A stretch of DNA of 64,000 bases from Actinernus sp. WN-2022 (taxonomy: Eukaryota > Cnidaria > Anthozoa > Actiniaria > Actinernidae), in assembly GCA_030867875.1 (NCBI GenBank), contig JAOWCC010001589.1, positions 85,149,537 to 85,213,536 on the forward strand, written 5' to 3'. How positions within the stretch are numbered: the stretch's first letter is position 1; each line of letters opens with the position of its first letter. The notes beneath the pieces are model-generated. The model searched no databases. It had not been told where the DNA came from and saw only the letters and a list, made by a program, of their open reading frames with translations. Below, one piece after another: positions 27,592-63,300 of the stretch. The translations under genes and the position numbers were made by a program.

Positions 27592-27715
27592 AATGGCTGC
27601 GTTGCCAGCGTGGTCGTCCTGATGGTGTAGTGGTTAACACATCGGACTAGTATAGCGAGGCCGTGGGTTCGAATCCCACTCAGGGCATATTTTTCTCTTT
27701 CATCTTTATTCTGAT
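27592..27715 (+). repeat. tRNA-like sequence (AGT anticodon position) in a short repeat, copy 1
   Basis: Positions 27616-27687 fold like a tRNA. There is a 7-bp acceptor stem (GTCCTGA / TCAGGGC), a GTGT/ACAC D-stem, and a T-arm GTGGGTTCGAATCCCAC with a perfect B-box. The anticodon loop CTAGTAT would read AGT (Thr). The anticodon stem has two mismatches. The same flanks (GGCTGCGTTGCCAGCGT before, CTTTATTCTGATT after) accompany copy 2 at 28053-28177. This points to a tRNA-derived SINE or a duplicated tRNA block rather than a clean functional gene. Confidence 0.55.
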
Positions 27716-28052: not shown

Positions 28053-28177
28053 TGGCTGCGTTGCCAGCGTAGTTGGTCCTGATGGTGTAGTGGTAACACA
28101 GCGGACTAGTATGCCGAGGCCGTGGGTTCAAATCCCACTCAGGGCACATATTTTCTCTTTCACCTTTATTCTGATTA
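28053..28177 (+). repeat. tRNA-like repeat, copy 2
   Basis: Positions 28076-28146 repeat the tRNA-like body of copy 1, with one base lost in the D-loop (GTGGTAACAC), changes in the anticodon stem, and GTTCAAATCC in the T-arm. The shared flanks on both sides show that the whole block of about 125 bp was copied. Confidence 0.55.
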
Positions 28178-38559: not shown

Positions 38560-38632
38560 TGGTTCATAGCGACGTTTCGTGGAGCTGGAGACGGTCGTTT
38601 GTTTCCCTTTGAATTGCTCTGTGGCGCTTTTC
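38560..38632 (-). pseudogene. Disrupted unrecognised ORF, piece left of the giant transposon
   Basis: If the 18.19-kb element and one copy of its 8-bp duplication are ignored, the minus strand reads through the target site in one frame. The frame comes from the right flank (KLFPHWDELPPTVYQE, about 56885-56838) into RETNDRLQLHE here, then stops near 38559. Further right, near 57112, lies a possible start (MANVCVFKDC). Stops and frame changes lie between, so this was probably already decayed when the element landed. The family is unknown. Confidence 0.3.
38625..38632 (+). repeat. Target site duplication of the giant transposon, left copy
   Basis: CGCTTTTC directly abuts the left TIR and is repeated exactly at 56823-56830. 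Confidence 0.9.
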
Positions 38633-38750
38633 GGTTCTTTCTCGATGTAAGAAACCCGAATTTTTCCAACATTTCCTAAATCAATATTCCTCTTTGTCAA
38701 AGACTCTGAGGACAGCACACAGGTAGTCCAATGTTTATTGCTCAAGGGCA
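38633..38750 (+). repeat. Left terminal inverted repeat (unique part, 118 bp)
   Basis: It begins GGTTCTTTCTCGATGTAAG and is identical to the complement of 56705-56822. The outer 24 bp are themselves weakly palindromic (GGTTCTTT ... GTAAGAAACC), a possible cleavage-complex hairpin. Confidence 0.9.
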
Positions 38751-41700
38751 GGTAGTCCAACATCAGCGTTTATTTCTCTAGGATATCACAGGTAGTCCAA
38801 CATCAATGTTTATACCTCTAGGACAGCTAGGACACTAGGACACTAGGACACTAGGACACTAGGACAGCACAGGTAGTCCAACATCAGCGTTTATTTCTCT
38901 AGGATATCACAGGTAGTCCAACATCAATGTTTATACCTCTAGGACAGCTAGGACACTAGGACACTAGGACACTAGGACAGCACAGGTAGTCCAACATCAA
39001 TGTTTATACCTCGAGGACAGCTAGGACAGCTAGGACACTAGGACAGCACAGGTAGTCCAACATCAGCGTTTATTTCTCTAGGATATCACAGGTAGTCCAA
39101 CATCAATGTTTATACCTCAAGGACAGCTAGGACACTAGGACACTAGGACACTAGGACAGCACAGGTAGTCCAACATCAATGTTTATTTATCTAGGATATC
39201 ACAGGTAGTCCAACATCAATGTTTATACCTCTAGGACAGCTAGGACACTAGGACACTAGGACACTAGGACACTAGAACACTAGGACACTAGGACAGCACA
39301 GGTAGTCCAACATCAGCGTTTATTTCTCTAGGATATCACAGGTAGTCCAACATCAATGTTTATACCTCTAGGACAGCTAGGACACTAGGACAGCACAGGT
39401 AGTCCAACATCAATGTTTATTTATCTAGGATATCACAGGTAGTCCAACATCAATGTTTATACCTCTAGGACAGCTAGGACACTAGGACACTAGGACACTA
39501 GGACACTAGGACAGCACAGGTAGTCCAACATCAGCGTTTATTTCTCTAGGATATCACAGGTAGTCCAACATCAATGTTTATACCTCTAGGACAGCTAGGA
39601 CACTAGGACACTAGGACACTAGGACAGCACAGGTAGTCCAACATCAGCGTTTATTTCTCTAGGATATCACAGGTAGTCCAACATCAATGTTTATACCTCT
39701 AGGACAGCTAGGACACTAGGACACTAGGACAGCATAGGTAGTCCAACATCAATGTTTATACCTCTAGGACAGCTAGGACACTAGGACACTAGGACAGCAC
39801 AGGTAGTCCAACATCAGCGTTTATTTCTCTAGGATATCACAGGTAGTCCAACATCAATGTTTATACCTCTAGGACAGCTAGGACACTAGGACACTAGGAC
39901 AGCACAGGTAGTCCAACATCAGCGTTTATTTCTCTAGGATATCACAGGTAGTCCAACATCAATGTTTACACCTCTAGGACAGCTAGGACACTAGGACACT
40001 AGGACACTAGGACACTAGGACAGCACAGGTAGTCCAACATCAGCGTTTATTTCTCTAGGATATCACAGGTAGTCCAACATCAATGTTTATACCTCTAGGA
40101 CAGCTAGGACACTAGGACACTAGGACACTAGGACAGCACAGGTAGTCCAACATCAGCGTTTATTTCTCTAGGATATCACAGGTAGTCCAACATCAATGTT
40201 TATACCTCTAGGACAGCTAGGACACTAGGACACTAGGACACTAGGACACTAGGACACTAGGACAGCACAGGTAGTCCAACATCAGCGTTTATTTCTCTAG
40301 GACAGCTAGGACACTAGGACACTAGGACACTAGGACAGCACAGGTAGTCCAACATCAGCGTTTATTTCTCTAGGATATCACAGGTAGTCCAACATCAATG
40401 TTTATACCTCTAGGACAGCTAGGACACTAGGACACTAGGACACTAGGACAGCACAGGTAGTCCAACATCAGCGTTTATTTCTCTAGGACAGCTAGGACAC
40501 TAGGACACTAGGACACTAGGACACTAGGACAGCACAGGTAGTCCAACATCAGCGTTTATTTCTCTAGGATATCACAGGTAGTCCAACATCAATGTTTATA
40601 CCTCTAGGACAGCTAGGACACTAGGACACTAGGACACTAGGACAGCACAGGTAGTCCAACATCAGCGTTTATTTCTCTAGGATATCACAGGTAGTCCAAC
40701 ATCAATGTTTATACCTCTAGGACAGCTAGGACACTAGGACACTAGGACAGCATAGGTAGTCCAACATCAATGTTTATACCTCTAGGACAGCTAGGACACT
40801 AGGACACTAGGACAGCACAGGTAGTCCAACATCAGCGTTTATTTCTCTAGGATATCACAGGTAGTCCAACATCAATGTTTATACCTCTAGGACAGCTAGG
40901 ACACTAGGACACTAGGACAGCACAGGTAGTCCAACATCAATGTTTATTTATCTAGGATATCACAGGTAGTCCAACATCAATGTTTATACCTCTAGGACAG
41001 CTAGGACACTAGGACACTAGGACAGCACAGGTAGTCCAACATCAGCGTTTATTTCTCTAGGATATCACAGGTAGTCCAACATCAATGTTTATACCTCTAG
41101 GACAGCTAGGACACTAGGACACTAGGACAGCATAGGTAGTCCAACATCAATGTTTATACCTCTAGGACAGCTAGGACACTAGGACACTAGGACAGCACAG
41201 GTAGTCCAACATCAGCGTTTATTTCTCTAGGATATCACAGGTAGTCCAACATCAATGTTTATACCTCTAGGACAGCTAGGACACTAGGACACTAGGACAC
41301 TAGGACACTAGGACAGCATAGGTAGTCCAACATCAATGTTTATACCTCGAGGACAGCTAGGACAGCTAGGACACTAGGACAGCACAGGTAGTCCAACATC
41401 AATGTTTATTTATCTAGGATATCACAGGTAGTCCAACATCAATGTTTATACCTGGACACTAGGACACTAGGACACTAGGACAGCATAGGTAGTCCAACAT
41501 CAGCGTTTATTTCTCTAGGATATCACAGGTAGTCCAACATCAATGTTTATACCTCTAGGACAGCTAGGACACTAGGACACTAGGACACTAGGACACTAGG
41601 ACAGCACAGGTAGTCCAACATCAGCGTTTATTTCTCTAGGATATCACAGGTAGTCCAACATCAATGTTTATACCTCTAGGACAGCTAGGACACTAGGACA

Positions 41701-44683
41701 CTAGGACACTAGGACAGCACAGGTAGTCCAACATCAATGTTTATACCTCGAGGACAGCTAGGACAGCTAGGACACTAGGACAGCACAGGTAGTCCAACAT
41801 CAGCGTTTATTTCTCTAGGATATCACAGGTAGTCCAACATCAATGTTTATACCTCAAGGACAGCTAGGACACTAGGACACTAGGACACTAGGACAGCACA
41901 GGTAGTCCAACATCAATGTTTATTTATCTAGGATATCACAGGTAGTCCAACATCAATGTTTATACCTCTAGGACAGCTAGGACACTAGGACACTAGGACA
42001 CTAGGACACTAGGACACTAGGACACTAGGACAGCACAGGTAGTCCAACATCAGCGTTTATTTCTCTAGGATATCACAGGTAGTCCAACATCAATGTTTAT
42101 ACCTCTAGGACAGCTAGGACACTAGGACAGCACAGGTAGTCCAACATCAATGTTTATTTATCTAGGATATCACAGGTAGTCCAACATCAATGTTTATACC
42201 TCTAGGACAGCTAGGACACTAGGACACTAGGACACTAGGACACTAGGACAGCACAGGTAGTCCAACATCAGCGTTTATTTCTCTAGGATATCACAGGTAG
42301 TCCAACATCAATGTTTATACCTCTAGGACAGCTAGGACACTAGGACACTAGGACACTAGGACAGCACAGGTAGTCCAACATCAGCGTTTATTTCTCTAGG
42401 ATATCACAGGTAGTCCAACATCAATGTTTATACCTCTAGGACAGCTAGGACACTAGGACACTAGGACAGCATAGGTAGTCCAACATCAATGTTTATACCT
42501 CTAGGACAGCTAGGACACTAGGACACTAGGACAGCACAGGTAGTCCAACATCAGCGTTTATTTCTCTAGGATATCACAGGTAGTCCAACATCAATGTTTA
42601 TACCTCTAGGACAGCTAGGACACTAGGACACTAGGACAGCACAGGTAGTCCAACATCAGCGTTTATTTCTCTAGGATATCACAGGTAGTCCAACATCAAT
42701 GTTTACACCTCTAGGACAGCTAGAACACTAGGACACTAGGACACTAGGACACTAGGACAGCACAGGTAGTCCAACATCAGCGTTTATTTCTCTAGGATAT
42801 CACAGGTAGTCCAACATCAATGTTTATACCTCTAGGACAGCTAGGACACTAGGACACTAGGACACTAGGACAGCACAGGTAGTCCAACATCAGCGTTTAT
42901 TTCTCTAGGATATCACAGGTAGTCCAACATCAATGTTTATACCTCTAGGACAGCTAGGACACTAGGACACTAGGACACTAGGACACTAGGACACTAGGAC
43001 AGCACAGGTAGTCCAACATCAGCGTTTATTTCTCTAGGACAGCTAGGACACTAGGACACTAGGACACTAGGACAGCACAGGTAGTCCAACATCAGCGTTT
43101 ATTTCTCTAGGATATCACAGGTAGTCCAACATCAATGTTTATACCTCTAGGACAGCTAGGACACTAGGACACTAGGACACTAGGACAGCACAGGTAGTCC
43201 AACATCAGCGTTTATTTCTCTAGGACAGCTAGGACACTAGGACACTAGGACACTAGGACACTAGGACAGCACAGGTAGTCCAACATCAGCGTTTATTTCT
43301 CTAGGATATCACAGGTAGTCCAACATCAATGTTTATACCTCTAGGACAGCTAGGACACTAGGACACTAGGACACTAGGACAGCACAGGTAGTCCAACATC
43401 AGCGTTTATTTCTCTAGGATATCACAGGTAGTCCAACATCAATGTTTATACCTCTAGGACAGCTAGGACACTAGGACACTAGGACAGCATAGGTAGTCCA
43501 ACATCAATGTTTATACCTCTAGGACAGCTAGGACACTAGGACACTAGGACAGCACAGGTAGTCCAACATCAGCGTTTATTTCTCTAGGATATCACAGGTA
43601 GTCCAACATCAATGTTTATACCTCTAGGACAGCTAGGACACTAGGACACTAGGACAGCACAGGTAGTCCAACATCAATGTTTATTTATCTAGGATATCAC
43701 AGGTAGTCCAACATCAATGTTTATACCTCTAGGACAGCTAGGACACTAGGACACTAGGACAGCACAGGTAGTCCAACATCAGCGTTTATTTCTCTAGGAT
43801 ATCACAGGTAGTCCAACATCAATGGTTATACCTCTAGGACAGCTAGGACACTAGGACACTAGGACAGCATAGGTAGTCCAACATCAATGTTTATACCTCT
43901 AGGACAGCTAGGACACTAGGACACTAGGACAGCACAGGTAGTCCAACATCAGCGTTTATTTCTCTAGGATATCACAGGTAGTCCAACATCAATGTTTATA
44001 CCTCTAGGACAGCTAGGACACTAGGACACTAGGACACTAGGACACTAGGACAGCATAGGTAGTCCAACATCAATGTTTATACCTCGAGGACAGCTAGGAC
44101 AGCTAGGACACTAGGACAGCACAGGTAGTCCAACATCAATGTTTATTTATCTAGGATATCACAGGTAGTCCAACATCAATGTTTATACCTGGACACTAGG
44201 ACACTAGGACACTAGGACAGCATAGGTAGTCCAACATCAGCGTTTATTTCTCTAGGATATCACAGGTAGTCCAACATCAATGTTTATACCTCTAGGACAG
44301 CTAGGACACTAGGACACTAGGACACTAGGACACTAGGACAGCACAGGTAGTCCAACATCAGCGTTTATTTCTCTAGGATATCACAGGTAGTCCAACATCA
44401 ATGTTTATACCTCTAGGACAGCTAGGACACTAGGACACTAGGACACTAGGACAGCACAGGTAGTCCAACATCAGCGTTTATTTCTCTAGGATATCACAGG
44501 TAGTCCAACATCAATGTTTATACCTCTAGGACAGCTAGGACACTAGGACACTAGGACACTAGGACACTAGGACAATACAGGTAGTCCAACATCAGCGTTT
44601 ATTTCTCTAGGATATCACAGGTAGTCCAACATCGATGTTTATACCTCTAGGACAGCACAGGTAGTCCAACATCAATGTTTATA
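38751..44683 (+). repeat. Left subterminal tandem array of the giant transposon
   Basis: About 5.9 kb is built from two alternating modules that both begin AGGTAGTCCAACATCA. One continues GCGTTTATTTCTCTAGGATATC. The other continues ATGTTTATACCTCTAGGACAGC, followed by a variable number of GACACTAG octamers. The AGGTAGTCC core occurs about every 50 bp. A higher-order period of exactly 2737 bp is visible from rare variants: CTCGAGGACAGC at 39009 and 41746, GTTTACACC at 39964 and 42701, and CCTGGACAC at 41452 and 44189. The array therefore holds about two full higher-order copies plus a partial one. The likely role is transposase binding, as inferred from position. Confidence 0.92.
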
Positions 44684-45002
44684 CCCGGGGGGGGGGGGGG
44701 ACTCCCTTATGTGAGGGGTACATGGATGCTCGTCGTACCTTTTAGGGCTCAAAATCAGGAGTTTGGTACCACTTAGGGTATCCGCCATCAAACACAGACA
44801 TTTCTATGTAAAGCGGTACCTTTTAGGGGTCGGGTGTCAATTGAACAAAAAAGCTGTTATCAATTTACATTTTTATTATCTTTTAGGGATCAAAATAAGC
44901 TCGAGCCATGACCATTTTAGTACCTCTTAGGGGTCAAATCGAAAATGTCCGACGAGCATCCCTACCCCTTTTATATGGGAGTCCCCCCCCCCCCCCCCCG
45001 GG
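44684..45002. mobile_element. 319-bp G-run-ended MITE nested in the giant transposon
   Basis: CCCGGGGGG...GACTCCC at the left and GGGAGTC...CCCCCGGG at the right, with GATGCTCGTCG and its complement just inside. The direct repeat TGTTTATA (44676-44683, 45003-45010) is the 8-bp target duplication. It was created in the last array unit, whose ATGTTTATACCTC sequence is split by the insertion. Confidence 0.8.
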
Positions 45003-46306
45003 TGTTTATACCTCCATTGATACCTTTTTATACTTTCTAGCTACATGTATTTTAGTTTTCACTGTATGCTGAAGAATAAAAATTATTTTGTAATACTACG
45101 CATAGACATTATTACGTTTTTCATTTTATTAATACTCAGTGAACTCCAGTATTACTAATCTGGGTAGTATCAATTAGATACTTACAATGTAATATTAACA
45201 CTTAGAAATGTTGGGATATGAAAGATGTGTTACCTGATCATATATACATAGATATACATGTAACTTCTACATGAATCCAAAAATCCACTACTTAATTAAA
45301 ACCATATGCAACCATGACTATTTGATCACCACAAGAGAATTGACTGATTAAATTCAGTTTTTTTTATTAATACAGAACCACTTCCAGACCTAAATTCTGA
45401 TTGGACCCATTTATCATACTGTATGTAGCTCTATTGATATTGTACTGATCATTCTAAAGTGACTTTAATTTGTATTTGTTGGGTTAATTAAAGCCAATGT
45501 CTGACTGGCTTGTTTTGAGTGGACTACATAACTCAGTCTGGCTGGGTTTTTTTTTTTGAGGTCACATTTTTATTAACTAAGTTATCATTAGCATGCTGAA
45601 GTGTTAAGGCATGGTTTGAACATGAAATTGAGGCTATAAAAAATAAAGCTATTTCATTGAATAACCTTAAAAATGCAATACAGCCCTAAATTTGATCTAC
45701 AAAAATAGTGGTTATTAATACTACTAATCTCTGAGCATTCTCAATTGTTTGAATATATTTTGTTGTGAAATGTCTATATTATAAATTATCATATGACCAA
45801 CCACATGATTACTGAAAACTGGAAATTTAGTCTCAAAATAGACATGCAGTCCCAATGCATGATTTCTTGTTTATTCTGATTACACTTCTGGTTGTTTCTA
45901 AAGCTCCTTTATTATATCCAATGGCAAAATGTCAACCATTCTAAAAAGAGCTAATTAGAACAACCAGATTAGATAATCAAGAAATCATTACTAAAAAATG
46001 CAATGTGACTGGCCCATTTTGATTTCTTTGTTCCACATGACCTTCAAAATACCAAAATACCTAACCTAAACTGTTAAGACATGTGAAAATTAATTAGCAC
46101 CTATAATTTACATGTTTTCTTGGGTAAACAGGAGTTTTAACAAAGAGCTGGAAGCTTACTGAATAACCACAGGCATTTGCTTGCAGATCACTTGACCTTT
46201 GCCCACACCCCAACCACATGCAAACAACCAATCCATTGTCGAACTAGCCCCAATGAACCAAACATGAACTCTCCCTAATCAGGAAAAATTAAATTACATG
46301 CATAAT
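45003..46306. other. Noncoding left interior of the giant transposon
   Basis: About 1.3 kb of AT-rich sequence between the array and the 3' end of the transposase gene. No ORF or repeat is recognised. Confidence 0.5.
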
Positions 46307-49123
46307 TTACTTGCTACTGAAAAGTTTTGCTATTAGTTGCTTAAACCTCTCTTGAAATCGTGCTAGTGTTTTATCATGCACTTGCATTTTGGACTTCACT
46401 TGAAGTTCTGACTTGCAACCTATTGAAAGGGGTAGTGGCAGACACCTAAGAAGCTCATTACAAATGGTGTTGAAGTGATCATATATAACTTGAGGTGTAA
46501 CTTCCATTCCAGGAGTTGACTTAATATACAATATGACTGCTTCAAATAGATAATGTTCTGATTTGGTCCATGTGCCAAGAGTGAGATGCTCATTATTTTG
46601 AACCATGAAATCCATGCCCTTTTGAATTGAATCAAGAATATCCTGGCTCCTGTGGTGGTACCTCCGTCTCTTATAGGTCTTTGTAACTGAAGGATGAGGC
46701 CTTTTTCCATTTGTATTCTCACATCCACTACATTCACACATTGCAGTACAAGCAAGCCCACTCAAATAACACTTGCATCGACAGGGATATTTTTTTCCAT
46801 CCAATGTAACACACTTTGGATAAGGTGTTTTGTGACTTCTGCCACAGGTACATGATATGTCTCTGGTATTTTGCACAGGAGTACTGCTGATTTTTTCTTT
46901 TACAATCAAAGGAACAAAAACTCCCCCTTTGACATAATGGAAAAAGAACAATGGGGAACCAGGCAATCTTATTTCTGGGAAAACTGGTATCACAGGAAAC
47001 TCATCACAGTTTGTTATTACTGAAAATACAGCTCCTACACCATTTGCCAATACCTGCATCTGTTCCTGGACCTTAACTGGAGAACTGACATAACTGGTGT
47101 GGTTTCTCTCAAATAAGATATCTTTTATTTCATCAGAACCCATTTCGTAGGTGAAACCAAGTTCTGAGATATATCCCTTGTATATGGATTGCTTACCATA
47201 GTACTTCATTTCCAGTGCAAGTGCTTCAACAAAACTGCAGTGATGCTCATCCTCTGTAAGGGGCTTAAATATGTTTTTGGACAGCAAACCTGTTGCCTTG
47301 GAGGATGACAGTGAATTGTATCCATTATTTAAGTCATCATTAAATATCACAGACAGTACTGTTGGTAGAAATGGGATATACTTGTTTTCAAAAACAAGGC
47401 AATCATCAGCAATCACATTCATTTGTTCTTCATAAAACTTCATCAACAAAAACAGTTGAGTAATCTTTTTATACAAAGAGTTCAGTTTATTTGGGTTCAT
47501 ACTTTGAATGCATGTTGCTATTGCATTTGTATCACATATTTCCTTGTTCCATGATGAATTATAGATTGAATCTTCAGATGGTGTCAGGCATCCTATGCCA
47601 AATCTTTCAATGGTATGTGGTGCCTTGTTTGGGCTTTCATATCCAGAAATAATAAAACTGTTCTTCTCCAACAGAACAGGTGGCACTGCTCCATTGCAAA
47701 CCTGCATATCCTTTTTGTTGTGAACATAAAATACTGCAGTCAAAATTGCAACAGCAGTTGCCACACCTAACTTGCAGTTTGTTACCTGGGCCTTCAAAGT
47801 CCTGTGGAGGCGCTCATTTTTACTTGTGGAAATATGTGGTGGAATGCCACTAACACAGCCTTTGTCTATGTGCTTTTGTAACTTATTGCATTCCTTGATT
47901 GCCTTTTTGTTTAAAACTTGCTGTCCTTTTCCATTTTTTGCATCCTTCCACTTGTGAACAAACAAATTTAAATTAGTCTTTATTCTCTCTTTAGAAGGTG
48001 TCTCTTCAGTACGTGTGTCACCTTGATCAGTAGCAGAACGAAATACTAATCTGAAATCTTTTACACAATCTGGTCTCAAATTATGTTTCTTTGGTATTTT
48101 TCGCGTCACACGGCTTATGGCATGGAACAGATCTAAGAGAACAATAAAGTCATCTCCATATACTCCTTGTAGCTTTTGCCGCCAGTGGCAACAGTTATCA
48201 ATACAAGCTCCTTTTAGGTTAACCCCATGTGAAACAAGTCTTGCTTTCAGAGCCAGAAGCATTTCCTCTATTTTATCAAAACTTTCACCTTTCGTCAATT
48301 TCCATGAAAGGACCTTTCCAGATTCATTTAAAACACACATGAGGGAAGAAAACTGATTGGCCCATCGGCCATCTGGATTATGTAGACCGATATTTGATGC
48401 AACTTTAAAAGTATGATCTAGGGTAATCCATTCTTCTGCAGTTTCCTGTGCCATACAGTCAGTAAAGTATACCTCATGTTCGACAAAGTATACAAGGAAG
48501 CATGATGTTATAAGATCGTTACTGGGATGACCTGTCTTCATTTCTTTAAATTCAGGAAAAGAGAAATTAACAATTTCATCTTCGAGTTTGTTGTTGGATC
48601 TCATATATACACGAACTGCAGTCCAAAAAGCATTTTCCCTCAACGCGTGTGATTGCCAGTATTTTTCCACTGTTGTACGTTCAATTTCATTAAATTTTGA
48701 GCCTGAGGTAACACTGCTGCTAATGAAATGAAATAATGTCCTTGTGACTCCAGTCTTGTGAAAGAGAATGAATGGTATTAAATCATAACTTGGCAGACTC
48801 TCCAAAATCAATGGGTGGCTTCCAGCAAATACATGTCCCTTCCTGCCACACATGTAAAAAGGCGATACAAGAAGGAGCTCTTCTTCTGTGTCGTAAATCT
48901 TTCTGGTTGAGAAACTATTTTCGAATGGCATTTGATGGAGAAAGCCGCATTTACACTTGGGACACTGCAAATGCTGCATGTGGTCTGGGAAATTTAAACT
49001 CGGGTTCCACAGCAAAAGAGTAGGTAATAAAAACCTATCTTGGACTGGTTGTTCCTTGCCTGTTATGATTACTTGTGGTGTGACTTTTATTGTAGCGTAT
49101 CCACCATGTTTTTTTAATTGCAT
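46307..49123 (-). CDS. Giant transposon transposase: DUF6729-like zinc region, DDE core, CXC cluster, Myb-like tail
   Basis: A 938-residue open frame. Residues about 45-120 hold CPKC, a YMCGRKGHVF segment and ILESLPSYDLIPF, matching the pattern of DUF6729 zinc regions. The RNase-H-like core follows. Candidate catalytic acids are D236 in LDHTFK, D309 or D331 in CIDNCCHWR and LDLFHAISR, and E437 in KNERLHR, with the H-x-x-x-R after the second acid. Residues about 758-801 form a cysteine cluster (CTCGRSH, CRCKCYLSGLACTAMCECSGC) like the tesmin/TSO1 CXC DNA-binding motif. Residues about 850-880 (TWTKSEHYLFEAVILYIKS) look Myb/SANT-like. It presumably binds the TIR or arrays and cuts and joins DNA. 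The true N-terminus is probably further upstream in another frame (to 49283). Family assignments are by motif only. Confidence 0.85.
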   Translation of the reverse strand: MQLKKHGGYATIKVTPQVIITGKEQPVQDRFLLPTLLLWNPSLNFPDHMQHLQCPKCKCGFLHQMPFENSFSTRKIYDTEEELLLVSPFYMCGRKGHVFAGSHPLILESLPSYDLIPFILFHKTGVTRTLFHFISSSVTSGSKFNEIERTTVEKYWQSHALRENAFWTAVRVYMRSNNKLEDEIVNFSFPEFKEMKTGHPSNDLITSCFLVYFVEHEVYFTDCMAQETAEEWITLDHTFKVASNIGLHNPDGRWANQFSSLMCVLNESGKVLSWKLTKGESFDKIEEMLLALKARLVSHGVNLKGACIDNCCHWRQKLQGVYGDDFIVLLDLFHAISRVTRKIPKKHNLRPDCVKDFRLVFRSATDQGDTRTEETPSKERIKTNLNLFVHKWKDAKNGKGQQVLNKKAIKECNKLQKHIDKGCVSGIPPHISTSKNERLHRTLKAQVTNCKLGVATAVAILTAVFYVHNKKDMQVCNGAVPPVLLEKNSFIISGYESPNKAPHTIERFGIGCLTPSEDSIYNSSWNKEICDTNAIATCIQSMNPNKLNSLYKKITQLFLLMKFYEEQMNVIADDCLVFENKYIPFLPTVLSVIFNDDLNNGYNSLSSSKATGLLSKNIFKPLTEDEHHCSFVEALALEMKYYGKQSIYKGYISELGFTYEMGSDEIKDILFERNHTSYVSSPVKVQEQMQVLANGVGAVFSVITNCDEFPVIPVFPEIRLPGSPLFFFHYVKGGVFVPLIVKEKISSTPVQNTRDISCTCGRSHKTPYPKCVTLDGKKYPCRCKCYLSGLACTAMCECSGCENTNGKRPHPSVTKTYKRRRYHHRSQDILDSIQKGMDFMVQNNEHLTLGTWTKSEHYLFEAVILYIKSTPGMEVTPQVIYDHFNTICNELLRCLPLPLSIGCKSELQVKSKMQVHDKTLARFQERFKQLIAKLFSSK

Positions 49124-49283
49124 CTTTCACAAACTCATTGATGCGCTCTGTTAGAACTCCTTTCCATTCTTCGAATTCATCGGTTTTTTCTTCGTCCTTA
49201 TCCGAGTCATCGTTTATGGGTAAACCCTGCAAAGGACACCTATTGAACAGGGAAGCATTTTCGTCAACATACGCTTGAGCCAT
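49095..49283 (-). CDS. Probable N-terminal segment of the transposase, out of frame by one base
   Basis: A minus-strand ATG at 49283-49281 opens MAQAYVDENASL and an acidic segment (DDSDKDEEKTDEFEEW) followed by NEFVKDAIKK. At an A7 run (plus 49109-49115) it runs out of register with the 938-residue frame, which has KKHGGYATIKV. With six As the two would be continuous. A one-base insertion in this copy, a sequencing error, or slippage at the A run would all explain it. The ATG lies 312 bp from the divergent ATG at 49596. Confidence 0.6.
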
Positions 49284-49595
49284 GTTGCAAAACGATAGAA
49301 GATCCTGGTCACGAAGTTGGACAACACTCTATCTAAGGCGATCTTAGGCTCTAGTATTACTGTAAGTATCGCGCTTCTAAACTCCGCTACTGCCGCTGAC
49401 CTTGGCTCGGTCGGTCTGGCCCCTAGGGCCTGGGTATGAAACAGACCTGAAAGGCGGGAAAAATCAATAAGGCGGGAAAAATCAATAAGGCGGGAAAAAT
49501 CAATAAGGCGGGAAAATCTTTTCACTTTGCAATTGTGTCGTGATTTATTGATCTCTCTGTTCTTTCCCGAGTTTTCGCATTTATTCCAAGTAACA
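49284..49595. promoter_or_regulatory. Shared divergent promoter with four E2F-type sites
   Basis: This 312-bp gap separates the two divergent start codons. It contains GGCGGGAAA at 49453, 49471, 49489 and 49507, an exact 18-bp period (GGCGGGAAAAATCAATAA; the fourth copy diverges after GGCGGGAAAA). TTTCCCGCC (its complement) is a standard E2F/DP binding site. A further TTTCCCG lies at 49564-49570. E2F sites drive S-phase genes in animals, so cell-cycle control of both transposon genes is inferred. No TATA box is evident. Confidence 0.75.
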
Positions 49596-50545
49596 ATGTC
49601 AACAGCTAAGAGAAGAAGGACAGTGGAGATTGAGGCTTTGTCCGTGGTAAAGCGTGCTAGAGCAGAGCGCCTAGATTTAGCGAAAGTTGCACCGATCAAT
49701 GTAAACAAGTGGATGGAAGTCATGGCGAAATCCAGAAACACTACACCAGAATTTGTACTGCTCAGTTCGTTGCCAGCAGTAGCAGCATTAATGAGTACCT
49801 CTTCGGTGGTTCAGGTAAGACCAACATACTCAGAGCCATTAAATCTCTATAGCGTGGTCCTGTCGCCGCCAGGAGCTGGGAAGTCCCAAGCATTTGAACT
49901 GACGGTGACATATCCATTTGGTCAAATCGATGACCCTGTTGCCAACAGTATCGTTGTGGGTGACCACACAAAGTCTGGCCTGACACACCACCTCGCCGAT
50001 AACCAGGGACTCGCGTTGTTAGGGAGTGACGAACTTTGCTCCTTTTTGGACAACTTATCGTCTAAGAAAAATAATGGGTTAGAAGAACGTGCCCTCCTTA
50101 ACAAGTTATACGATAGGCGTGCGGACATGGGAACATACACTTGTGAATACGGAAACAGCAAAGTCGAAATCGATTCAACGCGTGTGTGTATTGCTGGGTT
50201 TTCCCAGGACGAGGAGTTCGTTGAACAGTTTATGAGTTTAGCTGCCCGCAAGGATGGATTCCTTGACCGCCTTCTCTTTGCCGTCCCACCCCCTCAGCTT
50301 TTGATGACGAGAGAGGTTGACGCCTGGGCTGAAAAACTGAGAGAGTACCATGTAACTAATTTCTGCGCAATTTATCAAGAAATTTGGTACATACACCATG
50401 GCAGTGTATGCACTTACACATTCAGCCATGATGCATACAAGGAGTATGAGAAATTTGCTGATGACTTGATCAGGAAGCTAAATTGCCAGTTTAGAAGCAG
50501 TGAGAAGAAAGATGTGTCTTCAAAAGACGGTAGAACAGTTATAAG
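49596..50545 (+). CDS. Giant transposon DUF3987-like P-loop ATPase, exon 1
   Basis: Starts at ATG 49596 in a good context (ACAATGT). A basic N-terminus (TAKRRR, KRARAER) suggests nuclear import. Walker A is PPGAGKS at residues 91-97, and Walker B is LLGSDE at 141-146. A GFLDRLLFAVPPP segment at 221-233 matches the conserved R-bearing motif of DUF3987 proteins. DUF3987 proteins are P-loop ATPases often linked to primase/helicase-like modules in mobile elements. The exon ends ATAAG|GTACAT, one codon split, and joins exon 2 in phase. Its position back-to-back with the transposase suggests a partner ATPase in transposition or in replication of the element. The function is inferred, not shown. Confidence 0.8.
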
Positions 50546-50701
50546 GTACATATTTCTTACAAGAATTTGTCTTATTACATGAAGGGAGTGCATGTTAATC
50601 ATTTGTATGTTTGGAAGGGAGTGGTGGGGGTGCATGGGTGAGGGGCTAATCACTGTAACAAGCAAGAAACATGAAACAAATGTTTTGTGTTCAACTGACA
50701 C

Positions 50702-50847
50702 CCGACCCCGAAAAGGTACCGCTTTACATTAAAATGTCTGCGTTTGATTGTGGGTACCCTATAAGCGGTACCAAAACCTGTGATTTTGACCCCTAAAAGG
50801 TATGATGAACATCCCCGCCCCCTCACATACGGGAGCCCCCCCCCCCC
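50702..50847. mobile_element. Half-copy of the G-run-ended MITE, in intron 1 of the ATPase gene
   Basis: ACCCGACCCCGAAAAGGTAC, GTACC...GCGGTACC and the terminal ACGGGAGCCCCCC match the right half of the 52568-52874 copy. The left terminus is missing. Confidence 0.6.
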
Positions 50848-51337
50848 CATTTTTGCCTGCCTAGAGTGCAGATTGAGGATGAAGCTAATTTCATCGTAAA
50901 AAGCAATAAATATATAACCATCTACGAAATGCATTCCATGCTTCAATACAAAATGAATTCCACTGAGGCTGATAAATATAGAAAAATGCTCTGAGGAAAG
51001 TTGGCTAAAAATTGTCCCAACAATTATATATATACAGTTGCAAAATACAATCATATGAGTGCCTTCATATGTACCAATATGGCCTCAATTTAGAACTCTG
51101 ATCCATTCTGCCACAATCACTTTTGTAATACTGAAAGCTCTCTGCAAACACTTGTAGCCCAGTGACATGAACATTTATTTGGATTATTGTCTATCTCCAA
51201 ATTTAAAAAAAACTATATATCTATTAAAAAGGGGATCAGGCATGATCTGAAATAATCAAGACCTCAGAATTTGACGATGCAGCATTTAGATTTCTAAGCT
51301 TAACCTTCAGTTTTCCGTATTTCTGAACATTTCTCAG

Positions 51338-51506
51338 GCTGGCTGGCATCATGCATGTTTTGTACTGTGTGATAGAAAGTGCTTTGGTCAACCCTAACTG
51401 GTGTCAGAATCCCTTGGAAATACCAAATGAAATTTCTATGACAACATTTCATTATGCTATGGCATTAACAGAATACTACACATGCCAAAGAACTATATTT
51501 CAAGAG
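51338..51506 (+). CDS. DUF3987-like ATPase, exon 2
   Basis: The acceptor ATTTCTCAG and donor CAAGAG|GTGAGT bound a 169-bp exon. It completes the split Arg codon and reads LAGIMHVLYCVIESALVNPN to ALTEYYTCQRTIFQE. The helical LAG...A-x-x-x-AL-x-EYY pattern matches the C-terminal helical part usual after the ATPase core in this family. Confidence 0.72.
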
Positions 51507-51970
51507 GTGAGTTTAATCAATTATATTCCCGTGTAACAATTTTCCGTTTTAAGCATTCCGTTTCTAGCTAGAGAGAGAACCCCCTGAAAAGTAGTTCTGA
51601 ATCATGAATAAAACCAAATTCCCCTTTGCCTCTGGTCTTTTTCAATTCCTACAAAAATTCAATGGTTAATTCTCAAAACTTGCATTAGTCCTGATATAGT
51701 CTCTCTTTCAACTCAAAACTCCAGCTCTCTCAGTTGAGACCTTTCAGTCTATTAATTAAGCAGTTGAAATAGAGGCCAGGTCAGGGCTATATAAGGACTT
51801 AAGGATATTCCAATCCATTGTTACACCATTCATTGATTATCAGAAAGGCATTGAGTTAACAAAAAAATCACTATTTTCATTTAGTAATAATATGATCAAT
51901 ACATCCATGCTCTACATGTATGAAATAAAAATTACAACAAAAGTTGCTGTATAATTATTAATTTGTTTAG

Positions 51971-52372
51971 GCAGCACGAGGACAAGTTGGACCACAGGTA
52001 CTGGATGGAGATGCCCTTAAGTCAAGGATCCTGAATCATCCAGGCCCATTTGTCACCATCCGCAATCTAACCCGCTCAGTACCGTGCAGCCAGAGGCCTG
52101 ACTCAACTAAAGTGTTCAGTGAAATGAAAGAGATGGAGAAAGCCAAAGTAGGAGTTGTGGTGGAGGTCTCACAAATGAAGGTCTTCCTTAAGAGAAAGAG
52201 AGAAGATCTTGAACATGACAGGAATGATGTGTTCTCCACCTATATTACAGCTGATTTGTATCAGCAGGCTTTTGAGACCAAAGACCCAAACCTTACAGCT
52301 GCCAACTTCCAAAAACTTTTAGAGCTGCACCCTAACACAGAGGAGTTGCAACAAATGTTTGCAACTATATAA
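51971..52372 (+). CDS. DUF3987-like ATPase, exon 3 with stop
   Basis: The acceptor ATTTGTTTAG opens a phase-0 exon reading AARGQVGPQVLDGDALKSRI, and later VFLKRKREDLEHDR with a basic cluster, to a TAA at 52370-52372. The three exons total 1521 nt, exactly 507 codons with stop, and are all in register. This supports the gene model. The C-terminus (LLELHPNTEELQQMF) is helical. Confidence 0.72.
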   Translation, partial: AARGQVGPQVLDGDALKSRILNHPGPFVTIRNLTRSVPCSQRPDSTKVFSEMKEMEKAKVGVVVEVSQMKVFLKRKREDLEHDRNDVFSTYITADLYQQAFETKDPNLTAANFQKLLELHPNTEELQQMFATI

Positions 52373-52457
52373 CTATATAAGAATAAGATATGCTTACAAT
52401 GCTATATATGAGCCACCTGACTTCCTCAATCTCCAGTTTTTATGAGGTAATTTGTTG

Positions 52458-52460
<3 letters not shown>

Positions 52461-52501
<41 letters not shown>
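52461..52501. repeat. (TA)n microsatellite
   Basis: About 20 TA dinucleotides in a row. Confidence 0.95.
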
Positions 52502-52504
<3 letters not shown>

Positions 52505-52567
52505 GACATATGTATACAATGTAACTAATGCACATATCACTGGCTTTCCACAGGGCTACCGAGGGGT

Positions 52568-52874
52568 CCCGGCGGGGGGGTGACTCCCATATAAAAGGGG
52601 TAGGGATGCTCGTCGGACATTTTCGATTTGACCCCTAAGAGGTACTAAAATGGGCGTGGCTCAAGCTTATTTTGACCCCTAAAAGATAATAAAAATGTAA
52701 ATCGATAACAGCTTTTTTGTTCAATTGACACCCGACCCCTAAAAGGTACCGCTTTACATAGAAATGTCTGTGTTTGATGGTGGATACCCTAAGTGGTACC
52801 AAACTCCTGATTTTGACTCCTAAAAGGTACGACGAGCATCCATGTACCCCTCACATAAGGGAGTCCCCCCCGGG
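52568..52874. mobile_element. 307-bp G-run-ended MITE with 8-bp target duplication
   Basis: CCCGGCGGGGGGG...GACTCCC and the inverted GGGAGTCCCCCCCGGG are flanked by CGAGGGGT on both sides (52560-52567, 52875-52882). The interior closely matches 44684-45002 in reverse orientation. Confidence 0.78.
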
Positions 52875-52882
52875 CGAGGGGT

Positions 52883-53220
52883 ACACCCCCGGGCAGACCA
52901 GGGGGATATGTTGGGGAGTACAATTAGGGGATAGAATGCATTTTTTTTGCTAAGGTATGGGCAAGGGATAATTCTATACTTTGTTTGAAGTTCCAAGTTA
53001 GGGGAGGGGGAATTCATAACTTGATTGTATATGATCTCATATGAGGAGGATTTTCTGTTAAGGAAAATGTAACCCAGAGGACTTTCACTCGACATACAAT
53101 TTCCCCACCCTGGGGAAAATTATCAAGTTTGCTCCACCTTTTCTTACAATATATTCCCCTGGCCATTCTGGGATCTAATGACCTCTGGCCTGGGGAAGCT
53201 GGTGATATATGTGCATAATA
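52883..53220. repeat. Diverged copy of the 36526-36822 repeat
   Basis: Shares GTTTGAAGTTCCAAG, TGATCTCATATGAGGAGGAT and CCCTGGGGAAAAT with the 36.5-kb element. It sits directly beside the MITE at 52568-52874. Confidence 0.5.
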
Positions 53221-55740
53221 CATCTTACATATGGAAAGCATATGGCCTAGCTAATGGTTAACTTGATTTTTTATTTTTTTTGTATATTTTTTCACACTTT
53301 TGCTATTTATATATTTATTGCTCACGTATGTGTGGATGTAAATTATAGTTTGCAATATATATGAGGCATGTTAAGTTTCATCAGGTTACTAGACAGTACA
53401 AATTCCATGTCTGTGCTATTCAAAATACTAGACTTGAGCGAGTTGGTTACATTAATTGACCTGTGCATGAGATATATTGACTTATATTTGAGTGACCAGG
53501 TTATAATGTTTAAAGGATTGCTCTTTTCATCAATTAACAGTAATCTCCATTGTGTGCACAGGTTTAACATGGGAAAACAAATCGTGCACAACAAATTAAA
53601 GCAAAATAATAATAATCCTGCAAAGCTTCATATTCAGCCATTCCAAGACAAATTTGGGAAGTAGGCTTATTTGGGCTGTCAGAGAAGGCTAGAATCCTGA
53701 CATTTATGGATGTTCATGCAATGGTTTATGCCATATTTTAAGGAAAGAGCCAACCAGAGTTACAGAGGAATAGGTTTAATGAGCAGCATTTAAAACAAAA
53801 TGTGTCTATATATCTATGGTGATTATTTCCATAAAATCACCGTTCTCCCTCAAGTATATACGTAGGGGATGCAGTGTTTGAAGTCATGTAAAGTTACTCT
53901 AAAGAATGCATTCAATGTGCTAATTATTCAGTTCCACCCCATATGTGTAGCCCTTTGGCCATAATACTCATGCAGTCTCACTGATTCTAACAACCAGAAA
54001 TGATATTTCATTTATTGCATGCCAGGCCAGTTGCATTAATTTAAAAACAGTGTTGTTTTCTTAATTCAGATACAAACTACAGAAATGATAACAACATAAT
54101 AAACATCTATAATAATTTTTCTGGGACTTTGAATATAGTAAAAGCCCAGTATTAATAGATAATGTTTGGGTTCATGAATAAATTCTAGACAGAGTTAACT
54201 TAACAGCGGTGAACAGCTGGCGTATAATTAATTACAGCATGGATTAATTGAGCATATGACTGAGGCTATAACCGAATATGTGGTGGGTCCGGAAATAATG
54301 TCACTCACACTCACAATTAACAATCATCATTTCAAGGATGATGATTGACACAATTAAGTTCACTGGAAAAAAATCCTGCAACCAAATGTGGAGGAACAAA
54401 TTCTTACACAGATTTTATCCAGGAAAAATTTTTTTTGCACAAACTTGTTCTTTCTCTCTTTTCTTTTATTGTACTGGACTTATAATTACTTGATTACATT
54501 ACCAAATCGCCAACAACTGATTGACAAATTCCTTACATTATTTCTTGCAATTGTTAATAGTTTAACTTCCACAATGTTGTGTTATTTATAGGAATATAGA
54601 GCAGATTTCGTATGACTGAGTGCAGGGCAAACTACGGCACTCAGACTACAGCACGATTACTGTACGGCATGCTGTGACATTGAAATGGACTCCCATTGTT
54701 TTTGTCCTGCTGATCCAATCAAATAACAAAGTTACAGTACAGCACGGTTACAGTGCTCTATATATAAATCTTATGTAATTAATTTTATATAAGTTACTTG
54801 ATCATGCAGCTAGATTAGCTCTGATATTCTGATTAACTTTTTCCATCATAATGCTAGCTAGCTAGTTTATTAATATTGCATGTACGTACACGTAATTAAA
54901 TTCAGCTTTTGGTATAATAAAGTCGAGTTGTTGTTCCTAACTCTTTATACTAATTGTCAATTGTAGTCAAATAGATATCTTAATTATGCTTATCGTGCAA
55001 TTAAATATGTTTGAATGTATAATTAATGTACGTAATGGCCACATATGTCCTAGATGCATTCATTCGGACATTTATTTGCGAGAGTCGACTTACCACTAAT
55101 TTGTGTGAAATCGCGTAATGAATATAATTTATTAGTGACCGTCACATAATCAGTAAAAAGCACAATTTGAATAGGGCAAAACTCTATTTACTATATTATA
55201 AAGTACTAATATTTCATGAATATCTAAATGTGTGCATTATAACTTACCAGTTTAACACCTTTCAAAACAACAGATGCATGCTACAAATCTATGACACCAT
55301 CTGGATTTTAGGTGCGTCGATCGTCAAGTGGATTAATTTGCTCACTACACTTGTCGGGAATATTAAAGTGGCATGGACGTACGTACGTACTGTCAGTTTT
55401 TGTCCAGCTAATAATAATATACCCAAATGGACTACCGCAAAAAAATACCTTTCTGGGCAAGTAACTGCTGTAAGGAGCTTGTATCATACCGTCTTTGTGC
55501 TGTAGCTTGTATAATATTCACGATTTGCCATCATTGTAACTCGTATAATACCGGTATCATGATATGCCATAATATGCCATGTCGTTTCGCAATTCCACAG
55601 CCATTTTGTAAAGCCACAGGCATCCCAAACTCTACTGTTGTATTTCGGGTTACCTGTGGTCATTTATACCGCTTTAGGCGCGATCCGAGAAATACATAAA
55701 CAGAGTAAAGGTACCACTCATTCAACTACATAAAGTATTG
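53221..55740. other. Noncoding right interior of the giant transposon
   Basis: About 2.5 kb of AT-rich DNA with ORFs under 115 codons that lack recognisable features. A gene with small exons cannot be excluded. TTACCTGTGGT near 55650 resembles the dispersed ACCACAGGTAACCC motif elsewhere in the window. Confidence 0.45.
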
Positions 55741-56704
55741 CTCATTGATGTTGGACTACCTGTGCTGTCCTAGTGTCCTAGTGTCCTAGCTGTCCTAGAG
55801 GTATAAACATTGATGTTGGACTACTAAACATTGATGTTGGACTACCTGTGATATCCTAGAGAAATAAACGCTGATGTTGGACTACCTGTGCTGTCCTAGT
55901 GTCCTAGCTGTCCTAGCTGTCCTTGAGGTATAAACATTGATGTTGGACTACCTATGCTGTCCTAGTGTCCTAGTGTCCTAGCTGTCCTCGAGGTATAAAC
56001 ATTGATGTTGGACTACCTATGCTGTCCTAGTGTCCTAGTGTCCTAGTGTCCTAGTGTCCTAGCTGTCCTAGAGGTATAAACATTGATGTTGGACTACCTG
56101 TGATATCCTAGATAAATAAACATTGATGTTGGACTACCTGTGCTGTCCTAGTGTCCTAGCTGTCCTAGCTGTCCTTGAGGTATAAACATTGATGTTGGAC
56201 TACCTGTGATATCCTAGAGAAATAAACGCTGATGTTGGACTACCTGTGCTGTCCTAGTGTCCTAGTGTCCTAGTGTCCTAGCTGTCCTAGAGGTATAAAC
56301 ATTGATGTTGGACTACCTGTGATATCCTAGAGAAATAAACGCTGATGTTGGACTACCTGTGCTGTCCTAGTGTCCTAGTGTCCTAGTGTCCTAGCTGTCC
56401 TAGAGGTATAAACATTGATGTTGGACTACCTGTGATATCCTAGAGAAATAAACGCTGATGTTGGACTACCTGTGCTGTCCTAGTGTCCTAGTGTCCTAGT
56501 GTCCTAGCTGTCCTAGAGGTATAAACATTGATGTTGGACTACCTGTGATATCCTAGAGAAATAAACGCTGATGTTGGACTACCTGTGCTGTCCTAGTGTC
56601 CTAGTGTCCTAGTGTCCTAGTGTCCTAGCTGTCCTAGAGGTATAAACATTGATGTTGGACTACCTGTGATATCCTAGAGAAATAAACGCTGATGTTGGAC
56701 TACC
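55741..56704 (-). repeat. Right subterminal tandem array of the giant transposon
   Basis: The same two modules as the left array, in inverted orientation (TGATGTTGGACTACCT core), about 1 kb. The outermost 230 bp or so mirror the left array unit for unit, including the number of GACACTAG octamers (four, then three), before the order diverges. Confidence 0.92.
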
Positions 56705-56822
56705 TGCCCTTGAGCAATAAACATTGGACTACCTGTGTGCTGTCCTCAGAGTCTTTGACAAAGAGGAATATTGATTTAGGAAATGTTGGAAAAATTCGGG
56801 TTTCTTACATCGAGAAAGAACC
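56705..56822 (-). repeat. Right terminal inverted repeat (118 bp)
   Basis: Exact complement of 38633-38750, ending CATCGAGAAAGAACC. Confidence 0.9.
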
Positions 56823-56830
56823 CGCTTTTC
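56823..56830 (+). repeat. Target site duplication of the giant transposon, right copy
   Basis: CGCTTTTC, identical to 38625-38632. Confidence 0.9.
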
Positions 56831-60385: not shown

Positions 60386-63300
60386 ATGTCAAAGACTAGA
60401 AGAGAATGTCTAGAACTACTCGGTCTACCGCCATCAGCGAGTGAAGATGATATTAAAAAAGCTTATCGACAAAAAGCGCTCGAACTCCATCCGGACAAAA
60501 ACCGTGGAGCTCCAAAGGCAACGGAAATGTTTCAGGAGATACAAGAAGCTTATCAGATCCTTCGTGGAGACAGAAGCGAAGACAGACATGGATTTTTCGA
60601 GGAAGAGGAAGGAATACCGTGTGATATTTTCTGGTTGATAATGATGATGGAAAGAGAAAGACGCCGTAAACAATTCGGCCAATTTTCGGGACTATTTGGT
60701 TCTTTTGGTCCGTTTGGCCCATGTTCTGGTGAGCGGTTTGAATTTCGAACTAGCAGTTTCTCAAATAATAGAAGTCATAATTATAGACCCCAGCAGCAAA
60801 GTCGCCCGGCGTATTCGCGGGGTCACAACGCAGAACAACATTCCAGCTATTCACATGGTGGACAGAGAACACGACCTGGTACACGGACAAGAAATGAAGG
60901 CCACTTTACTGCAGGAAGGAAAGATGAAAAGGACACACCAAAAGACAACCAAGATAAAGAAACTGTTGAAAAAGAGACTGGTCCACAACCAAAGCAGAGA
61001 CAGAAAGGGGCGAAAATCAAGAAACCAGATCCATGGAGTCGTAAAAAGAAATCGAAGAAGAAACGCAAGCCAACCTATGGTAATAGTTATAGACCAGGAA
61101 GTACAAGTGCGAGTAACAAGGAGGAGATATCTGAAGAGGAGAATGACGTTGAGGATTGTGATTCTGATATATTTAAAGGAAGAGAAGCTGCAAACACAGA
61201 CCGGGAATGTTCGAGCTCTGTTTTATCAGATTCCGAACATGAAGCCACAAGTGAGTGTGGTGCCCACGAAAAGGAATATTATGTGGGCGAAGAGACCTCA
61301 TCTGACAGGAGGAACAAAAGTTTTAAAAAGGAGGTAAATGGATGCGTCAATGAGTTAAATATAGATTACATTGATCGCGACAATGCGGTGTTCAATGTCA
61401 ACGAGGAGCGACTAGGACATGCTTCATTTCGCCGCGAGGAAAATAATAGTGGTATATCCGGTTCTGAGACTGTACATAGATTTCCAGGAATCAACGATCA
61501 CCATGGAGATGCTAAAATGAAATACGGGCACGATGGCGAGGATTTGGAAACGAGGCAACAAACTAAAGTGAAAGGAAAATTTGCTGAATCCATTCCAGGG
61601 ACATCTAGCTCATTTCCGGGGCCAAAAGGAGACAAACGAACATCCGGCGCGACAGAAGAACAAGGCCCTTCTTTAGCAACGCATTTCCCCGATGTATCTG
61701 AAAACTGTAAAACGTATGGGGAGCCAGCTTTAAACCAAGTTGATTCTAAAACGCGTTATGACAAGGTGCGAACTGAGCAAGAACTATCGATTGGAAGTGA
61801 TGGTTCTAACGAGAGGTTTTCGCCTGATTTCCCTTATCATAATATTATTAAAGAACACGGTATAACGCAACAAAACGCAAGTGAAACGAAGCAGAAGAAT
61901 TCGCAGGAAGTTCGAGAGAAAGAGAAGTTTGCGAAGAGTGATGGGAAAGGCGAGAGAAAACGAGTTGAAACAAAAACATTTATCAACACTTTTCCTACGC
62001 GATTCGATGACTTTTCTAATGATTTTAAATCCGAGGAGATTCAGAAAAAGCCAGAAAAGCACCAAAAATCAAGTCTAAACAAACAAGACTCAAAACTGAA
62101 CACTTCAAAAATAGATTGTGAGAGCACTACAAAACAAAGCAGCTCGGAAAAGGCAAAGCTCCACACTGAATATGTCGACTCTACTAAGCAGAAACAGAAG
62201 TTCGTTAGGCAAGGAAAGGATTCAGGCTTCGGAGATGCTGTTGATGATTTGAAGAAAGAGGCGGAACATAGAAGCACACACACGACAGGCCACGCGAGCA
62301 CGTGCAAAGACCTCTCCTCACGGGCAGACTGTCGGTTACCAAGAGTCGAAAAGCAGAAAGTATATTCAACGGTAGGGTCAAAGAGTGGAGCAAACGGGTC
62401 TAGACAAGCTTCGAAGGACAACAAAGAGAAGCCTGGTCAAAAGTGTACCTTGAGTGACTGGAATACAAGCATTGAAACGAAACTAGAGAAGCCAAAACTG
62501 GAGCATACCTTTGAAGAAAGTTCTGCGAAGCAGAAACAAGGGGGTGCACCTCTTAGGAAACACGGATTAATAAATGAGATGAGTTATGAAGCAAAGCTAG
62601 CTGAACGATCAACATGTGGCTCAGAACCAACTGCGTACCGAAAACCTCCTTTAGAGCATCCTCAAAACGAGAGAAAAAGAACCACGAAGAAAGGAACGAA
62701 GGGAAAGACAACTCAGACTTTGTCTGGCGGAAGATATGACTGTCTTGATACCAGAGACGGAGAAGGAGAAGAGGGATTGTGTCAAAGGCAGACTATACGA
62801 GGGGACGGGGGAGGGCAGGGAACCGAAGATGAAAATAGGGTAAAGGAGGGATTATTTGGCAGTAACACTACTATGGGGGAGGGTATAGAGAAGGAAATGA
62901 ACGGCGCGGTTGGGAATAATTCCAAGACAAGAAATAACACTTATGTAAATTGTTTTGGGGAAGCAACACAAATTCATGGTAGCCAGACTATTGGGGGTGG
63001 GGTAGGGCTGGAAAATCACCAGTATCGTAACAACGTGTACGATTCTTTTCAAAACAGCTCACTAGGTAAGGAAGGACATTGTAATCAGTATTCTAGGGAG
63101 GGGAGGGTAGGTACGGAAATGTATGGCGATCAGATAACTGTACAGGGTGGTATTGAACGGGAAACTTGTACAACCACAGGGAACTCGGCTGATCAACAAT
63201 TCCGTCAAACAGTCTATTACCCACGGAATAAAGGGGCAATGATTTCAAGGAAGAGAAGAGATCGGAGGGAAGGGCCTAGCAGTCAGCCCCCTAGGGAGGA

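Follow-up and report, generated by a model that had tools for sequence, protein, structure and literature searches.

Introduction

In the Tn7, Mu, and IS21 systems, a DDE transposase works together with an ATPase partner (TnsC, MuB, and IstB, respectively), and the known eukaryotic DDE transposons mostly encode a transposase alone or together with a DNA-binding helper. Described here is an 18-kb DNA transposon located within a 64-kb stretch of DNA from Actinernus sp. WN-2022 (contig JAOWCC010001589.1, positions 85,149,537 to 85,213,536; the whole stretch is referred to as the window, and positions given without a contig name are counted from its first base). The element spans 38633-56822 (18,190 bp) and carries two genes, one encoding a large transposase and the other a P-loop ATPase of the DUF3987 family (Pfam PF13148). 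The explanation favored here, to which a probability of about 0.72 is assigned, is that of a recently mobile two-gene DNA transposon from a lineage placed, among the DDE transposases, on the IS256/Mutator side, with the ATPase partner serving as a helper; the host is apparently an animal. The lineage would be a new one with a recurrent ATPase partner, for which we infer the role.

In the passages of PMC5862659 that concern it, DUF3987 occupies, in mobile elements of bacteria, the position next to primases that known helicases otherwise hold, and it is a predicted helicase; the open-literature reports found to name this domain have bacterial, phage, or satellite subjects. The ATPase in the window belongs to the same Pfam family as the DUF3987 domains of the bacterial primase proteins treated in those passages. 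It differs from them in that no primase domain was seen here and in that its neighbor is a DDE transposase gene, within a transposon of a eukaryote.

Structure of the element

Both boundaries could be fixed to the base, as the initial annotation, made from the letters of the window alone, had proposed. The 5′ tip at 38633 reads GGTTCTTT and the 3′ tip at 56822 reads AAAGAACC, and the element is flanked perfectly by the 8-bp target-site duplication CGCTTTTC (38625-38632 on the left, identical to 56823-56830 on the right). The left terminal inverted repeat (38633-38999, plus strand, beginning GGTTCTTTCTCGATGTAAG) and its right counterpart (56456-56822, minus strand) are identical over 367 bp before the first mismatch is met, close to the ~350 bp estimated earlier. 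Approximately the first 118 bp of the left repeat lie outside the adjoining subterminal array, and the identity continues into the arrays.

The two subterminal arrays, also noted in the initial annotation, are inverted relative to each other: the left one (38752-44673, plus strand) comprises 103 copies of the 13-mer GTAGTCCAACATC, and the right one (55747-56703, minus strand) comprises 18 reverse-complemented copies. Coordinates within the left array recur 2737 bp apart, which shows that part of this array is duplicated internally. At its inner end sits a nested insert of ~310 bp with G-rich inverted ends that resembles a miniature inverted-repeat transposable element (44687-44996, from self-comparison of the window with the ends placed by eye), bracketed by what appear by eye to be 9-bp direct repeats, GTTTATACC, at 44677-44685 and 45004-45012. 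The element contains two relatives of this insert, one inverted (52571-52871, 96.7%) and one partial (50683-50848, 84%).

Copies in the host genome

The same ends recur elsewhere in the host assembly (1.39 Gb searched), with at least 409 matches to a 368-bp end and at least 62 matches to the transposase. Twelve copies were read, namely the window element and 11 that were fetched, six of them long and six short. The long copies (16.2-22.2 kb) have identical first and last 24 bp, and all six contain both genes. Perfect 8-bp duplications flank five of them (CGCTTTTC, CAAAAGTA, TTTTATCT, CATATTGA, and CAGACTTT); copy C540 has a 7-bp duplication. The check proposed with the initial annotation, a search for further copies with these ends, 8-bp duplications, and both genes, thus turned out in its favor except for this one shorter duplication, and neither differing ends nor separation of the two genes, which would have spoken against it, was seen among the six. 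Since the five other long copies have the same ends, duplications of their own, and both genes, chance can be excluded as the origin of the element. Terminal inverted repeats within target-site duplications at several sites (the six long copies), with a DDE transposase between the ends whose catalytic residues are predicted from conservation and fold, are features of a cut-and-paste DNA transposon.

Over the ~6-kb core holding both genes, the other five long copies differ from the window at 1/6066, 5/6063, 10/6005, 16/5877, and 13/5878 positions (0.02-0.27%), so the family has moved recently. The number of GTAGTCCAACATC copies on the side corresponding to the left array is 19, 47, 49, 70, and 100 in these five copies. 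Neither gene was present in the stretches fetched for the six short copies. In two of them, both ends lie within a perfect 8-bp duplication; a third likewise has both ends, of which the left is mutated, but no duplication; and the remaining three were fetched only in part. Because their interiors fail to match the autonomous core, the short copies resemble non-autonomous relatives. One short copy with the same ends (L024, C1312:95864805-95873939) was observed by eye to contain pieces resembling a retroelement reverse transcriptase and RNase H.

The family of the window element is designated A below. Three related families in the host genome are designated B and C, both resolved to the base, and D.

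Transposase and ATPase genes

The initial annotation had placed two divergent genes between the ends, and both are present. The transposase appears in the open reading frame (ORF) list of the window as an ORF of 938 aa (46307-49123, minus strand), consisting of a DUF6729-like N-terminal part, an RNase H-fold DDE core, an OTU-like fold at residues 599-743, and a helical C terminus. The DDE-type RNase H fold is a prediction, as are the catalytic residues D236, D309, and probably E437, which were assigned from conservation and the predicted fold. A cysteine cluster aligns with the CXC domain of relatives.

The relative P0001 begins with MAQAYV. This start is also found in the window, at 49283, but in a different frame, with a frame switch at an A-run near 49115; the 938-aa ORF is therefore less than the whole protein, and its N-terminal part, starting MAQAYVDEN, was placed at 49124-49283 (minus strand, other frame) by comparison with P0001. 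The A-run has the same length in the window and in copy C1615, and differs in the other four long copies. An uninterrupted 1006-codon transposase frame is found in copy C888 and in the copy at C635:127.35 Mb, and the frames of C540 and C813 are interrupted further on. The latter two copies (C540 at 21.79 Mb and C813 at 18.19 Mb, loci L018-L023) have in common a 3.7-kb insertion in the transposase with the ends CCCTTAC...GTAAGGG, and lie at different sites. Because the A-run change is shared by the window and C1615 and the insertion by C540 and C813, all at different sites, copies with a damaged transposase frame were probably mobilized in trans. The description of the window copy as intact-looking consequently holds for its structure, which is complete, but not for its transposase frame, which is probably interrupted near the N terminus. 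An internal start might also yield a working protein from this copy, and the damage to the transposase frames might be partly later than the movement.

Among 40 members of the transposase family, the commonest Pfam matches at E <= 1 were OTU, CXC, ISL3 (PF01610, 6 of 40), and DUF6729, with Mutator (PF00872) in 2 of 40. The window transposase has no Transposase_mut or MULE profile match and no sequence match among solved structures. The best solved match to its predicted fold is the ISCth4 transposase, which has an IS256-type fold; that other families do not appear among the structure matches listed is no evidence against them. Compared with the IS256 (ISCth4), Mutator, and MULE group, the window protein is without a MULE profile match, and the element adds the DUF6729-like N-terminal part, OTU-like and CXC-like domains, and the DUF3987 gene. 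Searches elsewhere gave no tblastn-confirmed relative in viral contigs (queried with the transposase alignment) or genome contigs (queried with P0001). In the open literature, no report was found that names DUF6729 or joins a transposase with OTU and CXC domains, also by a broader query, and the family may be catalogued under another name in Repbase or in subscription journals, beyond the literature searched.

The DUF3987 gene was modelled with predicted splice sites as three exons encoding 506 aa on the plus strand. Exon 1 (49596-50545) contains the Walker A motif PPGAGKS and matches PF13148 at E 3.6e-27; exon 2 (51338-51506) is modelled on splice-like sites, frame, and matches in other copies; and exon 3 (51971-52372) encodes the C-terminal part, which has relatives in families B and C. 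The closest named DUF3987 proteins come from Exaiptasia, with 57-58% identity, and the lowest-scoring matches among the DUF3987 relatives are bacterial-looking proteins (P0163-P0166). One Exaiptasia relative, P0123, continues into a tandem repeat (GRCQVDVRSMS), as if its gene model had entered a subterminal array.

The two gene starts are separated by a divergent intergenic region (49284-49595), in which the 18-bp unit AAGGCGGGAAAAATCAAT is repeated 3.7 times in tandem (49451-49516). At 49454, 49472, 49490, and 49508 lie four sites that resemble the E2F consensus, reading TTTCCCGC on the minus strand; this consensus has 22 matches in the whole window. The long copies of family A contain 4, 4, 4, and 3 of the 18-bp units in four of six cases and none in C540 and C813. 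Upstream of the transposase, family C has two E2F-like sites in 1.77 kb per copy and families B and D have none; one site occurs near the start of the DUF3987 frame in family B. An E2F-like promoter as a trait of the whole lineage is not supported, the cluster being confined to four of the six long copies of family A, and S-phase expression is hypothesized for family A only.

Recurrence of the gene pair in divergent families

PF13148 has 131 matches in the host genome, and 91 DUF3987 clusters were distinguished. A DUF3987 gene was found within 25 kb of 24 of the 42 transposase loci listed (49 of 301 candidates were scored), against an expectation of ~0.003 per locus, or ~0.1 in total. Eighteen of these 24 paired loci have 38-43% identity to the window protein and show three gene arrangements, with the pair divergent at 13 loci, convergent at 4, and in tandem at 1; several of these loci have the same gaps and look like mutual copies, so that not all are independent, and five, with gaps of 14-19 kb between the genes, were counted without tracing the element ends.

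Families B and C could be delimited by their own ends. Two copies of family B (C1706:66913123-66922169, with the duplication ACAAAGGT, and C635:47691779-47700816, with CCCACAAC) and two of family C (C1312:170348755-170361075, with AAAATATC, and C888:47408364-47418589, with GATTAACG) were checked, and in all four the 8-bp duplications enclose ends with both genes inside. Every gene-bearing copy that was followed to its two ends has both genes between the same ends (10 of 10; six of family A, two of B, and two of C). Over ~500 residues, identity to the family A transposase is 35.3% for that of family B and 34.8% for that of family C, and the DUF3987 proteins of the families are 24-34% identical to that of the window. 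The family B transposase has an open 1126-codon frame in C1706, and long open DUF3987 frames with a Walker A motif are found in families A, B, C, and D. The ends of A, B, and C have a motif in common, with GG at the very tip followed by CTYGRTGTA from position 9 to position 17. Searched for with up to one mismatch, TTTCTYGRTGTA had no match in the loci of families B and D; the ends of B were later located by comparison of copies, and those of D were not found. In families A and C the arrays are inverted between the two ends, and in family B repeat-rich stretches lie inside both ends. Fixed ends, 8-bp duplications, inverted subterminal arrays, and recent copies are thus shown for the element, and a DUF3987 gene lies between the ends in three families.

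Four-taxon trees of the transposase and of DUF3987 agree on the grouping BD|AC (bootstrap 99 and 100), an agreement that would arise by chance one time in three. Outside the host genome, the transposase relative P0002 and the DUF3987 relative P0145 each lie on a 49,229-bp contig, probably the same one.

Mechanism and alternative explanations

In the mechanism proposed for the two-gene transposon, the transposase would bind the ends and the array repeats, which are putative binding sites, excise the element, and join it, with a stagger of 8 bp, to target DNA. As a P-loop ATPase with a recurrent C-terminal part, the DUF3987 protein would act as an ATP-driven helper of the transposase. It might remodel or unwind DNA at the ends that bear the arrays, or it might control how the complex assembles or which target is chosen. 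The two-gene logic of transposase and ATPase is like that of Tn7, Mu, and IS21, and likeness of role is a conjecture drawn from this analogy. In the four long copies with E2F-like sites (four in the window), one divergent promoter could tie both genes to S phase, and damaged copies would have moved in trans. A helicase-like, DNA-working ATPase is suggested by the part of PMC5862659 in which DUF3987 stands in for helicases beside bacterial primases.

The ATPase could instead serve survival in the host, through anti-silencing or replication-linked amplification, and take no part in the transposition reaction. The link between DUF3987 and primases in bacterial replicons is consistent with this, as are helpers in other transposons, such as the TET/JBP dioxygenases carried by fungal transposons according to portions of PMC12730594. 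However, no third gene was recognized between the ends in ORF lists read by eye, and no primase or methylation gene was seen there. The explanation is credible but unlikely.

A second alternative is that the DUF3987 gene is a passenger or a captured host gene with no part in transposition, and several observations lend it weight or count against the favored explanation as a whole. No DUF3987 gene lies within 25 kb of 18 of the 42 listed transposase loci, four of which are decayed family A fragments, and 67 of the 91 DUF3987 clusters lack a listed transposase relative; one DUF3987 locus (L031) has a Walker A motif that appears degenerate by eye. Moreover, the family C transposase is fragmented in both copies, and the E2F-like sites are missing in two of the six family A long copies and unclustered in families B, C, and D. 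A larger tree of DUF3987 proteins places two bacterial-looking members between its BD and AC sides (support 86), a position that fits a root there but also two separate captures.

A further point of this kind comes from a DUF3987 locus read without a listed partner, at C1312:92.086 Mb (L045-L047, G000:C1312:92080000-92096599), where the 6 kb on each side are free of matches to families A-D and to seven further relatives. On the opposite strand, ~3.4 to 4.9 kb from the DUF3987 gene, lie a FLYWCH domain (E 3.5e-5) and part of a MULE domain, the latter at E 2e-4 and so below the Pfam cut-off; this DUF3987 gene has seemingly eight copies (505-codon frame, same score). This neighbor shows that DUF3987 is not exclusive to the lineage of the window element: it may partner more than one Mutator-type lineage, and the locus is a possible second transposon lineage with the same ATPase. 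A tandem repeat was seen by eye on the other side of the gene.

Against a passenger, the same pair is found in families with transposases ~35% and DUF3987 proteins 24-34% identical to those of the window and in three gene arrangements, and long open frames with Walker A are present in families A, B, C, and D. On these grounds, a gene without a part in transposition appears rather improbable, and the helper role is preferred. The initial annotation had regarded the DUF3987-type ATPase as a fixed partner; recurrence is borne out by families B and C and by the 24 paired loci, but "fixed" is too strong a word given the 18 loci without it.

Kinship with KDZ/Zisupton elements, also put forward in the initial annotation, is very unlikely and was rejected on profile and fold. 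Large size, a cysteine-rich protein, and 8-bp duplications are common to the window element and to Zisupton as characterized in sections of PMC12730594. Duplications of 8 bp are common to unrelated groups, so their length alone cannot single out Zisupton, a point that also counts against the favored explanation. With the KDZ/Zisupton profile PF18758, none of seven family proteins gave a match at E <= 10, although HMMER filters drop most weak matches, and this profile was not among the 25 of 38 Pfam families shown for the 40 family members, which give mainly the OTU, CXC, ISL3, and DUF6729 matches described above, with Mutator in two; the nearest predicted fold is that of ISCth4. Finally, cores >99.7% identical might point to segmental duplication or misassembly as the source of the six long copies. 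The probability of this is negligible, since each of the six sites has a different flanking duplication immediately next to the ends and array lengths vary among copies.

If the recurrent ATPase partner of the two-gene transposon is confirmed, it would represent a second enzymatic step in eukaryotic DDE transposition and a role for the eukaryotic branch within a family of ATPases of the bacterial replication type, and the recent activity of family A (1 difference in 6066 bp between two copies) makes the role of the ATPase testable. A bolder proposal, put forward tentatively and unlikely to hold in full, is that the element represents an undescribed superfamily-level lineage of animal DDE transposons dependent on a dedicated ATPase, with a logic like that of Tn7, Mu, and IS21, and that DUF3987 is a general, overlooked subunit of eukaryotic Mutator-type transposition, including the FLYWCH-MULE type and possibly timed to S phase.

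Other features of the window

Outside the element, a 534-aa ORF at 15209-16813 resembles by eye, with its YADDT motif, a non-LTR (long terminal repeat) reverse transcriptase. A 1027-aa ORF at 60386-63469 has, also by eye, a DnaJ-like domain at its start. The window further contains a 52-bp tandem array of 22 copies with 94% matches (24079-25232) and two tRNA matches (27616-27687 and 28076-28146) located ~460 bp apart in a repeated stretch.

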